Below are positions 36,196 to 39,153 of a stretch of 39,903 nucleotides of DNA, in pieces. Origin of the DNA: Sedimenticola sp. (GTDB taxonomy: Bacteria; Pseudomonadota; Gammaproteobacteria; Chromatiales; Chromatiaceae); contig JALSJZ010000173.1 in NCBI GenBank assembly GCA_026989135.1, positions 1 through 39,903 on the forward strand. The letters run 5' to 3'. The notes below the pieces were generated by a model. That model ran no database searches. It was not told the DNA's origin and saw only the letters and a program-made list of their open reading frames with translations. A program made the translations under genes and the position numbers. Numbering within the stretch: the first letter of the stretch is position 1; every line of letters begins with the position of its first letter.

Positions 36196-36825
36196 TCAGG
36201 ATTCAGTATCAGAATCCTCGCTCTCTTGTCGCCTCTTCTGTAGCCATTTGCCCTGGCTTCTCAGCAGATAACGGATCAGTATGTCGCGGTCTGCCTCACG
36301 TATATTTGAAAAATTGACGCGCAGGCAGTACGGCTCTTCCTGGCTCCCGCCCCCTTCATTTTCAACACACTCCACCACTTCGCCATAAATCATCATGCCC
36401 GTCATTTCGGGCATCAATAGCAGCTTGAGTTCCAGGGTCTCTCCTTTTTCATGTGGTTCAGCACTGCTAAAGACGATGCCTCCCGCACTGATGTTGACCG
36501 CTTTCGTTGCCTGATTTGCGGTCTCCTCTTCCTGCACCAGAAAGGCCCGCCCCAGAATATTGAGCTTTTGATCCAGGATTTTGATGCACGCTGCAACATC
36601 TGGCGCTGTGCCTTCAATACGGCGCAGTTGAACAATCATCTGCTGCGACATGGCGGTAAAGCTGCTCATGACAGTGAAATTGGAGGCTACTCCTCTCTCC
36701 AACTGCTCTATGAGTTCCGGCAACTCCTCACTGGAGACCGCACGGTAGCCCAGCTTTACAACATCATCAATGCGGAAATAGCTTCTCCGCTCATCGGTTA
36801 ACCATTCGCTGTTTTTATCGTTCAA
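36196..36825 (-). CDS. PilZ-domain c-di-GMP-binding protein beside the flagellar stator genes
   Basis: The PilZ motif is present in two parts: RxxxR as RSYFR (residues 14-18, in DERRSYFRID) and NxSxxG as NISAGG (residues 111-116). Between them lies a long helical insertion (about residues 33-108) instead of the usual short spacing. The start is TTG at 36825, supported by AGGAG (in TTTAGGAGATCC) about 7 bases upstream, which itself overlaps the pomB stop. So translation is coupled to pomB. This suggests a c-di-GMP-responsive protein acting on motility or the stator. The 209-residue protein ends in an acidic, Ser-rich tail. Confidence 0.85.
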   Translation of the reverse strand: MNDKNSEWLTDERRSYFRIDDVVKLGYRAVSSEELPELIEQLERGVASNFTVMSSFTAMSQQMIVQLRRIEGTAPDVAACIKILDQKLNILGRAFLVQEEETANQATKAVNISAGGIVFSSAEPHEKGETLELKLLLMPEMTGMMIYGEVVECVENEGGGSQEEPYCLRVNFSNIREADRDILIRYLLRSQGKWLQKRRQESEDSDTES

Positions 36826-36835
36826 TTGGGATCTC

Positions 36836-37936
36836 CTAAATCAAATCCTCGACACTGATGACCTCTTCTTGCCGGAGATCATCTTCTGGCACAATGGCTG
36901 GCGCTGCATCATCAGGATTCATCTCCGTAACCGGCGCAATTATATCCTCTGGTTCAACAGCAAAAGGCAGCTCTTGTGGAGCCGAGTCCAATATCCCAGG
37001 CTGCGGCAGCCCCATATCCGGCTCTATTATCGGCTCTATTGCTGGCTCAACAGGTTTAGTCACGGCCGGAGCTTCCAGAACATCCTCTTTTTCACGCTTG
37101 ATAATCAGCTCCACACGCCGGTTGAGCGCACGATTTTCAGGCGTGTCATTTGGAACCAATGGATCAGAATCAGCATGGCCTTCAAGCAAAAAGCGCTTGG
37201 GATCCAGCGTTGGATCTGCCAGTATGGCATGTGCCACGGTTACTGCTCGCGCGGTTGACAGCTCCCAGTTAGAGCGAAACCGTTCGGTAGAGATCGGCAC
37301 ATTATCCGTATGACCCGCCACTACAACCTTACCGGGCCGGGTTGATATGGCTACGGTTATGCGATCCAGAACGTCAACAAACTCCGGGCGCAGATCCGCA
37401 CTCCCGGAGGGGAATGATCCCTTTTCGTTGATGCGGATTATGACATTGGCACCGACCACCTCAATCGTCACCATCCCCTCATCAATCTCCTTTTTCAACG
37501 ACTTTTTCAGCTCTTCGGCCTGATCTTCCGCCTCTGCCTTAAGCCGCTCTTCAGCCGCATCCATAGACATTGCATCTGCATTTGCTTCACCCGCTTTTTC
37601 CGGGCCGTCATTAACCTCTAAACGCTCCTTCTCCTCCTCTGTTGTCTCCTGCCTTACCGTTTCTGTTATCGCGGGGTCTGATATAGATGGGCTGAACTCC
37701 AATGCTACAACACTGATTCCCCTTACGATTTCATTTATTGGTATCTCTTTTTGCACACCAAAGGCATCTTTCATGGATTCTGCCATTTTCTTAAAACGGA
37801 TGGCGTCCATCTCGGCAAAAGACAACAGCAACACGAAGAAGCACATCAGCAGCGCCATCATGTCGGCAAAGGTGGCCATCCAGGCAGGCAGCCCCTCTTC
37901 ACATTCACACACATGCTCTTCTGTTTCTTCTGCCAC
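36836..37936 (-). CDS. pomB: Flagellar motor stator protein MotB/PomB
   Basis: MotB/PomB anchors the ion-driven stator to peptidoglycan. The single TM segment (WMATFADMMALLMCFFVLLLSF) contains the ion-binding D25 and is closest to the Na+-type PomB. After an acidic Glu-rich linker (about residues 95-150), the OmpA-like peptidoglycan-binding domain shows GHTDNVPISTERFRSNWELSTARA and LEGHADSDPLVPN. The 366-residue length exceeds the usual 310-330 because of a Pro/Glu-rich tail of about 80 residues after the domain. The start is GTG at 37936, with AAAGGA about 8 bases upstream. A 241-bp repeat separates it from pomA. Confidence 0.93.
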   Translation of the reverse strand: MAEETEEHVCECEEGLPAWMATFADMMALLMCFFVLLLSFAEMDAIRFKKMAESMKDAFGVQKEIPINEIVRGISVVALEFSPSISDPAITETVRQETTEEEKERLEVNDGPEKAGEANADAMSMDAAEERLKAEAEDQAEELKKSLKKEIDEGMVTIEVVGANVIIRINEKGSFPSGSADLRPEFVDVLDRITVAISTRPGKVVVAGHTDNVPISTERFRSNWELSTARAVTVAHAILADPTLDPKRFLLEGHADSDPLVPNDTPENRALNRRVELIIKREKEDVLEAPAVTKPVEPAIEPIIEPDMGLPQPGILDSAPQELPFAVEPEDIIAPVTEMNPDDAAPAIVPEDDLRQEEVISVEDLI

Positions 37937-37966
37937 CGTCTATTCCTTTACCAAAAACATACGATT

Positions 37967-38207
37967 ATCCTAGAATCTGCAGTTGGACGGGGTGGAGTGC
38001 GTGCTTGCGGGGGTGTATGGCAAGGCGCAACGACGTAGAATAGTTATTCTATTCCAAGGAGTTGCAACACGGCCATACGCCGCCGCAAGCGTGCAATCCG
38101 CCCCGTAGCGTAGCTCACCCGGCAGGTGAGTTGGATAAAGACATAAAACATTATACATATCAATATGTTGATCTATCCTCATAGCGGTCAACTGCGGAAT
38201 CTAGGAT
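37967..38207. repeat. MITE-like palindromic element (241 bp) between pomA and pomB
   Basis: Terminal inverted repeats ATCCTAGAATCTGCAGTTG (37967-37985) and CAACTGCGGAATCTAGGAT (38189-38207) match at 17 of 19 positions. Inside, 37987-38010 and 38083-38106 form a second long inverted repeat around the perfect palindrome TAGAATA-GT-TATTCTA (38036-38051). A further small hairpin CTCACC/GGTGAG lies at 38114-38130. There is no coding frame worth naming. It begins 2 bases after the pomA stop and ends 30 bases before the pomB start, so it adds structured RNA to the operon without breaking either gene. Confidence 0.85.
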
Positions 38208-38209
38208 TA

Positions 38210-38971
38210 TTACTCTTCATCTCCCGATGGGCGTTTTCCAGCGGGCAGATAGGTGCAGAGCAGCTGTTCCAGCACACGGGGGTTCATCCCCTCCTGAATA
38301 CCGCCAATGGTTTCCATTATCAGCTTTCGGTTCAGCTCCTCCATCTGGCTTGAGCGTTCTAGCTTAATAGCAATGGGCTGCGCAAACACATTGGCAATCA
38401 CAGCGCCATAGAGTGTGGTCAACAGCGCCACCGCCATTGCAGGCCCAATACTGGCCGGATCCGACATGTTGGCCAGCATCTGCACCAGGCCGATCAAGGT
38501 ACCAATCATGCCCATTGCCGGGGCACAGACCGCCATGTTTTTAAACATGACAATTCCCACCTTGTGCCGCTGGATGGTCTGGTCAATATCCTTGCTCAGC
38601 ATCTTTTTAACCAGCGCAGGGTCATGCCCATCAACACATAATCCAACCCCTTTTTCCAGAAAACTGTTTGATATCTCCTGGCTCTCCAGCGCCAGCAATC
38701 CATTTTTGCGTGCAATGTCCGCCAGCTCGACAGCCTCTTGAATCAATAATTGTGAATCATAGGTTTGATATAAAAACGCCTTCAAAGCAGTGCCAAATGC
38801 AGAGATAAAATCCTTTATCGTCACCTGCATCAAGACCACAAAAGCGGTACCACCTACCACGATCAGTATGGAGGGGATATTTATAAACAGCATCAGATCG
38901 CCACCCGATACAATGGCACCTATGATGATGCCAAAACCACCCAACATGCCAATTAGTGTTGCAATATCCAA
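38210..38971 (-). CDS. pomA: Flagellar motor stator protein MotA/PomA
   Basis: PomA forms the ion channel of the stator with PomB. The 253-residue length and the N-terminus MDIATLIGMLGGFGIIIGAI with NIPSILIVVGGTAFVVLM are close to Vibrio PomA, the Na+-driven type. Four TM helices are visible: two at the N-terminus, and two in the C-terminal half (APAMGMIGTLIGLVQMLANM and AMAVALLTTLYGAVIANVFAQPIAIKL). The cytoplasmic loop carries the charged residues that touch FliG. A GGGAGC ribosome-binding site precedes the ATG. It is the first gene of pomA-pomB-pilZ; no other flagellar gene is in the window. Confidence 0.95.
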   Translation of the reverse strand: MDIATLIGMLGGFGIIIGAIVSGGDLMLFINIPSILIVVGGTAFVVLMQVTIKDFISAFGTALKAFLYQTYDSQLLIQEAVELADIARKNGLLALESQEISNSFLEKGVGLCVDGHDPALVKKMLSKDIDQTIQRHKVGIVMFKNMAVCAPAMGMIGTLIGLVQMLANMSDPASIGPAMAVALLTTLYGAVIANVFAQPIAIKLERSSQMEELNRKLIMETIGGIQEGMNPRVLEQLLCTYLPAGKRPSGDEE

Positions 38972-39153
38972 TTGCCCAGCTCCCGTTGATTATTTACATT
39001 CAATAGTTACCCATCTGGTATCAGGGCTTAATATTCAGATTCAGAAGATGCTGTAAAAGATAGCGGGTAGCCCCCCGATAACTTTAATTCATAATCTGCT
39101 TTTTAATGGCTATCATGCAGGGCAATAACTCAATCTCATCAGGAGCATCCACT

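Follow-up and report, generated by a model that had tools for sequence, protein, structure and literature searches.

What is a large palindromic sequence doing between two genes of a flagellar stator? In the stretch of Sedimenticola sp. DNA that we analysed (39,903 nucleotides, referred to here as the window), the spacer between pomA and pomB measures 273 nt, compared with about 31 nt without the sequence in question. PomA and PomB form the stator as a 5:2 assembly, and an initial annotation, made from the letters alone, proposed that a 241-bp MITE with an inner 120-base cruciform had inserted here and that the RNA structure could change the pomB level or the stability of the mRNA. We examined the locus, its relatives and other copies of the element. 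Very probably, the sequence is a non-autonomous MITE mobilised in trans, with an IS1380-like DDE transposase as the most likely agent; the stop codons on which it lands would often be spared, and its orientation is presumably under selection.

A MITE between pomA and pomB

The element has terminal inverted repeats, a target-site duplication (TSD) and multiple copies, and at 237 bp it is too short for a transposase (Table 1). Its ends, CCTAGAATCTGCAGTTG and CCTAGATTCCGCAGTTG, are alike at 15 of 17 bases. The initial annotation was right that an element is present but overstated its length, having wrongly included two TSD bases on each side; likewise, its count of 17 matching bases in 19 at the termini was correct, although the 19 take in two bases of the TSD. 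The cruciform that it described is real. Outer arms at 37987-38021 and 38072-38106 (35 nt, 83%) and inner arms at 38027-38043 and 38049-38065 (17 nt, 76%) give a fold far beyond that of shuffled sequences, both for the spacer RNA (-117.3 kcal/mol vs -72 +/- 4.8, z -9.4) and for the element as DNA (z -10.3). An inverted-repeat search at default settings reported no repeat for the cruciform.

Table 1. Features of the pomA-pomB spacer and its flanking genes (window coordinates)
Feature	Position	Strand	Basis or remark
MITE, 237 bp	37969-38205	+ (canonical orientation = window + strand)	TSD, other copies, empty sites in relatives
Target-site duplication ATTAT, left copy	37964-37968		single copy (ATAAT, coding strand) in G002, G004
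Target-site duplication ATTAT, right copy	38206-38210		sequence; empty site in relatives
Left terminal inverted repeat CCTAGAATCTGCAGTTG	37969-37985	+	repeat comparison
Right terminal inverted repeat CCTAGATTCCGCAGTTG	38189-38205	-	family-conserved ACCGCT next inward
Long imperfect hairpin	37987-38106	+	pairing maintained between genera by compensatory changes
GTAGCG motif	38105-38110	+	common to several genera
Small palindrome CTCACCCGGCAGGTGAG	38114-38130	+	conserved; helix without covariation support
IHF-like site TATCAATATGTTG	38158-38170	+	matches WATCARNNNNTTR without mismatch
pomA	38210-38971	-	MotA/TolQ/ExbB family, PF01618; gene upstream of element
pomB	36836-37936	-	MotB plug + OmpA, PF13677 + PF00691; GTG start; gene downstream of element
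Probable pomB ribosome-binding site AAAGGA	37944-37949	-	7 nt before GTG; outside element; sequence

Same-genus relatives confirmed that the element was inserted. G002 and G004, whose PomA proteins are 99% and 95% identical to that of the studied genome, have an empty pomA-pomB site (GAAGAG TAA TAATCGTA), and ATAAT occurs there only once in both, which shows that the element was inserted. Four relatives from the same genus have an orthologous pomA, and the element is absent at pomAB in all of them; their spacers measure 31 nt (G002), 32 nt (G004), 30 nt (G005) and 27 nt (G001). G003, whose best PomA match was only 35%, fell outside this comparison, as did the pomB of G005, called as a frame of only 95 aa, outside the comparison of identities. 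An exact TSD, two empty sites and many other copies (the studied genome has 23 in which both ends are present) bear out the proposal of a MITE inserted between the two genes. The initial annotation had named conservation in all relatives, or a lack of other copies, as observations that would speak against it; neither was found.

The insertion lies at the very end of pomA. On the coding strand, the stop region reads TAA TAAT, two tandem in-frame stops, and the right TSD copy shares base 38210 with the pomA stop codon, of which it is the last base. In this lineage, the element entered the second of the two stops, so that pomA retains its stop.

An apparently widespread and undescribed family

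The genome that contains the window (G000) gave 39 BLAST matches to the element, many of which are incomplete or count a single palindromic place repeatedly, and four of five same-genus relatives also had matches (G001 had none). Across our sample of the order, the end motif occurred with at most one mismatch in 60 of 147 genomes, although single matches may be chance; a control search with the reversed pattern found 0 or 1 per strand. Model R1, built from the 100 bases at the right end of the element, matched 52 of the 369 class genomes, the studied one among them, and these represent 45 of 272 genera (E <= 0.001). In a sample of the phylum, 13 of 398 genomes matched at E <= 1e-4, and nine of the 13 lie outside the class. 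The length is nearly constant, being exactly 237 bp in 60 of 119 elements from 22 genomes. We drew a second sample from other families, namely 60 R1 matches chosen among the matches listed in the class, mostly better-scoring ones. Both ends were present in 53, allowing up to five end mismatches (52 of the 53 had three or fewer), and the other seven were without the left end; 33 of the 53 measured 233-239 bp. Plasmid and phage collections gave no match to the element (blastn, E 1e-5), Rfam gave none for window positions 36700-39100 at E up to 1 or for seven loci at gathering cut-offs, and among the open-licence literature matches listed we recognised no paper describing this MITE family. The family is apparently both widespread and undescribed.

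Several copies vary on this plan. Extra modules of about 21 bp (GCACCAAAAGTAGGCGCTTTAGGCGAG type) lie in the hairpin arms of one group (L009, L011-L014, L017, L020, L021); L014 and L017 carry one such module in each arm, and L020 has a module of about 49 bp ahead of GTAGCG. The hairpins seem to grow by module insertion. A palindromic short form of 156 bp with a perfect TSD (L019/L030, G000:C127:10604-10759) is without the right-hand part that carries the IHF-like site. At L010 (G000:C10:19286-19601), a remnant end stands 5 bp away from a complete copy, and in L011, L025 and L027 the element ends are adjoined by a whole or half palindrome, CGGACAGCCTCCTAGGAGGCTGTCCG, possibly another repeat family. 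L376 (G000:C81) and L325 (G002:C95) are one orthologous insertion, with near-identical flanks and the TSD ATAAT; two species of the genus share it, so some copies seem to predate the divergence of these species, which the pomAB copy does not.

IS1380-like ends

Within the same bacterial family, G102, G136, G132 and G195 carry IS1380-like elements of 1686-1716 bp, whose ends include CCTAAAAAGAGCAGTT and CCTAGATACAGCAGTT. Among 23 scanned loci we found 15 copies with both ends, 12 of them from G102. Perfect 5-bp TSDs flank 12 of the 15, and in these position 4 is A in 12/12 and position 2 is T in 10/12. The ends and TSD of the MITE are of the same kind, with a 5-bp TNA core, and the inner end bases differ between genera. 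In G014, the right end of one MITE (L037, CCTAAAAAGAGCAGTTG) has its first 16 bases in common with this IS. The G102 transposase scores 72.5 bits against PF13701 (cut-off 34.7), but its 149 bits against the NCBIfam IS1380 model fall below the required 180. Judged by its sequence, the element can be classed as a MITE with IS1380-like ends, and its ends and TSD point to a helper of the IS1380-like class.

We also looked for a partner element. The G102 transposase (513 aa) was matched in 15 of 76 genomes searched and had no match in G000. That genome holds eight IS1380 pieces, the best of which scores 155.7 bits where 180 are required, with no MITE-type ends in the fetched flanks, and its assembled contigs yielded no partner element with the same ends. 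Because no same-genome partner was found, we limit the claim to "IS1380-like ends" and do not extend it to derivation from a named IS.

Other candidates were set aside. G082 has the most MITE ends of any genome in the order sample (79 + 76 matches) and 43 matches to an IS1380 transposase model, with intact copies ending in CCCGCATGTTTCAC; these ends are quite different from those of the MITE, and we rejected this element as the parent. An autonomous copy with exact MITE ends did not emerge from the places listed in G000-G005, G082 and G099, which were read by eye: convergent end pairs 1-3 kb apart among them were two short elements or unlike ends. In G099, the one end pair 2.9 kb apart lacks a matching TSD, and to the eye its long frames do not resemble a transposase. 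In G048, a truncated IS1380 piece adjoining a MITE-like end was suggestive, but the second end was not found.

Target sites and gene context

Perfect 5-bp TSDs flank 86 of the 119 copies, and every one of the 86 has T at position 2 and A at position 4; the outer pair is complementary in 82. In the second sample the rule held for all 28 perfect TSDs among 53 elements, whose ends were partly chosen by TSD agreement, which inflates the 28/53 but not the base rule. We propose that transposition joins the ends (CCTA...CAGTTG) to a target of 5 bp, in most cases a palindrome (ATNAT or TTNAA), and duplicates this target. Read on one of its two strands, the TNA core is a stop codon, and the duplication restores what was hit; the element can therefore land on a stop codon.

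To place the insertions relative to genes, we ran our own codon-model gene calls on their empty sites, counting the 98 of 119 elements that had flanks of at least 600 bases and at most one TSD mismatch. Of these insertions, 4 of 98 lay deeper than 30 nt in a gene, compared with 1211 of 1724 control targets (ATNAT/TTNAA at the same loci). Among the remaining sites, stop codons were within 30 nt of 47/94 insertions and 128/513 controls (p = 3e-6), and within 12 nt of 38/94 and 54/513 (p = 3e-11). The second sample, in which 40 of the 53 two-ended elements were counted (flanks of at least 500 bases, at most one TSD mismatch), gave 3/40 insertions against 669/1023 controls inside genes, and 20/37 against 61/354 within 30 nt of a stop (p = 2e-6). 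An earlier count of 59 elements by a cruder ORF rule put 21/59 inside ORFs, compared with 339/456 controls, so the gene calls influence how large the effect is but not its direction. By our own gene calls, the element avoids gene interiors and is enriched at stop codons. At overlapping stop/start junctions, the duplication rebuilt both codons in 9/16 cases and in 5/7 of the second sample, as in ccATGATc at L329; with start codons guessed, the remaining 7/16 and 2/7 did not have both rebuilt. When the element lands on stop codons or on such junctions in operons, both frames would often be spared.

Orientation near stop codons

Near stops and outside convergent gene pairs, the gene reads the minus strand of the element in 33 of 37 cases (33:4, p = 1e-6, with the orthologous pair L325/L376 counted twice within the 33). 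The second sample gave 13:5 (13/18), which is not significant alone (p = 0.10). Convergent pairs gave 5:5, and 2:0 in the second sample. Among tandem pairs the ratio is 26:4 at gaps of up to 60 nt and 21:9 at larger gaps; this difference is not significant (Fisher p = 0.21), so a link between co-transcription and orientation is not established. The second sample gave 9:4 at gaps of up to 60 nt. The opposite orientation occurs in nine insertions placed exactly on a stop codon, four in the first sample and five in the second. Control targets came from the same loci and therefore provide no control for orientation (186:78).

Both the proximity to stops and the orientation bias might be produced by the transposition machinery, through the target centre, transcription or IHF, with no part played by selection. 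We regard this as a credible but less probable reading. The TNA core of the target is itself a stop codon on one strand, and orientation does not depend significantly on the gene gap. For insertions away from stops, pyrimidines outnumber purines 33:18 at the TSD centre, an excess that may cause part of the orientation bias. What targeting explains poorly is the set of 13 non-convergent insertions that lie 3-30 nt beyond a stop codon and had a target other than that codon: all 13 share the orientation, five of them have a purine centre, and two are one orthologous insertion. We infer that purifying selection is the reason for the bias.

A conserved hairpin that folds better on one strand

In an alignment of 45 elements picked to spread over genomes (A1; a further alignment, A2, held 34), GTAGCG, TTCACCC...GGGTGA, the IHF-like TATCAnTAnCTTA and AGCGGTCAACTG are conserved across genera despite differing hairpin arms. 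For the plus strand, RNAalifold predicted 53 pairs, 35 of them with changes on both sides, at -65.5 kcal/mol (covariation share -11.4) vs -37.5 for the minus strand. Covariation in the end helix is partly expected anyway, because one transposase would have to read both ends. The small palindrome was rejected as a covarying helix for want of covariation. The IHF-like WATCARNNNNTTR is perfect in 66 of 119 elements and within one mismatch in 106, compared with 0.8% and 21.8% of shuffled elements, counts that are not independent, as the copies are related; the match suggests that IHF may bind the element.

The two strands fold unequally. Plus-strand RNA folds better in 87/87 elements of 233-243 bp (mean -118.6 vs -101.1) and in 37/37 elements of 225-245 bp in the second sample. 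In those hairpin columns that the folds of both strands predict, G-U pairs outnumber A-C mismatches 36:6; the raw ratio of 231:10 is biased because its columns were taken from the plus-strand fold, and the ratio is 38:68 in columns of the minus-strand fold and 233:72 in the union. Much of this wobble asymmetry comes from four conserved columns, and one column is reversed (C-A in 43/45).

Covariation, a consensus energy that favors the plus strand and a G-U excess in columns predicted on both strands would all suit a structured RNA gene or riboregulator, mobile by chance, with the plus-strand RNA as its product. We think this unlikely. Near stops, it is the minus strand that usually enters the mRNA, Rfam has no match, the form under selection could be single-stranded DNA or a cruciform, and the asymmetry derives largely from the few wobble columns, one of which runs the other way.

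In the explanation that we favor, with purifying selection acting on the orientation of the MITE, mostly the weaker-folding strand in the mRNA would be tolerated between co-directional genes. The pomAB copy has this common orientation: the pomA-pomB mRNA contains the weaker-folding minus strand.

Consequences for pomB

Several features argue against a strong disabling effect on pomB. Its frame is intact (366 aa, 94% identity to the pomB of G002), and AAAGGA is intact and lies outside the element, as the initial annotation had noted. None of the five terminator-like sites listed by a scan falls within the element; in the family, T runs of at least five occur on the plus strand in 17/87 elements and on the minus strand in 15/87, short flanks included. 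Arguing for some effect are the strongly folded 273-nt spacer RNA and a weak promoter-like site in the element that points at pomB (TTGACC, 18 nt, CATATT; 38191-38162, minus strand). Sigma70-like matches occur on the minus strand in 21/87 elements vs about 10 in shuffles, and on the plus strand in 11 vs 8. We predict that pomA and pomB are co-transcribed, with at most a moderate change of the pomB level or of spacer mRNA processing; the PomA:PomB dosage may possibly be affected.

It is quite improbable that the element is a regulatory part of the pomAB operon, kept because its hairpin, IHF-like site or promoter sets the PomA:PomB ratio. The RNA structure, the IHF-like site without mismatch, the TTGACC/CATATT site and the minus-strand excess of sigma70-like matches could serve such a role, and ERIC and Correia elements alter neighbouring mRNAs (PMC2229807, PMC10969869). 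However, the four comparable same-genus relatives do without the element at pomAB, the promoter matches are weak consensus matches, and the same element stands beside many other genes. We see little chance, too, that the family is built for life inside operons, where the duplication would rebuild overlapping stop/start codons (ATGAT, TAATG), a closed hairpin pinned by the terminal repeats between the codons would set the stop beside the next start and let the ribosome re-initiate, and the orientation bias would reflect which strand permits re-initiation across the insert.

By itself, the insertion at pomAB is an ordinary MITE insertion. The family is less ordinary: it keeps a near-constant length and a covarying hairpin over many genera while its inner end bases change, it follows a strict TNA-core target rule with frame-sparing insertions at stops and junctions, and the same strand is better folded in every measured copy. 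These properties raise two testable questions, namely how a mobile element colonises tightly packed operons without breaking them, and whether its structure is selected for the element or shaped by its cost to the host.

Comparison with known systems

IHF sites, RNA hairpins and effects on mRNA that vary with orientation all have precedents among MITEs, in the Correia and ERIC families. Like our element, ERIC is a short palindromic MITE with 3' and intergenic positions; published descriptions give it 127 bp and 7-bp terminal inverted repeats, an effect on mRNA that depends on orientation (PMC2229807) and insertions at 3' ends (PMC10969869). By these published values it differs from the present element, with its 237 bp, 17-bp terminal inverted repeats, 5-bp TNA-core TSD and IHF-like site. 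Correia elements of Neisseria (NEMIS, CREE) are described as MITEs with terminal inverted repeats, an IHF-binding site and an RNA hairpin (PMC2229807, PMC10969869, PMC2649163); the repeats and the hairpin have counterparts here, and the IHF site a putative one, by sequence match. They are set apart, by description, in size, in their 24-bp terminal inverted repeats (PMC2229807) and in placement, mostly immediately upstream of genes (PMC10969869).

Two further systems come close in single respects. Chunjie of Geobacter uraniireducens, a 235-bp MITE reported to spare an operon, is similar as summarised in a review (PMC10969869) and may or may not be related. In Coxiella burnetii, one account assigns an IHF-binding-site sequence to QMITE1 and a location mainly in 3' UTRs to QMITE2 (PMC5896051), likenesses in site and in placement respectively; the same account gives the QMITEs other sizes and direct repeats of 2-4 bp (QMITE1) and 7-11 bp (QMITE2), unlike the element. 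The likeness to IS1380 transposons lies in the CCTA...-type ends and the 5-bp TNA-core TSD, which those 1.7-kb elements combine with a PF13701 transposase, whereas the MITE carries the same kind of ends and target on 237 bp without a transposase gene.
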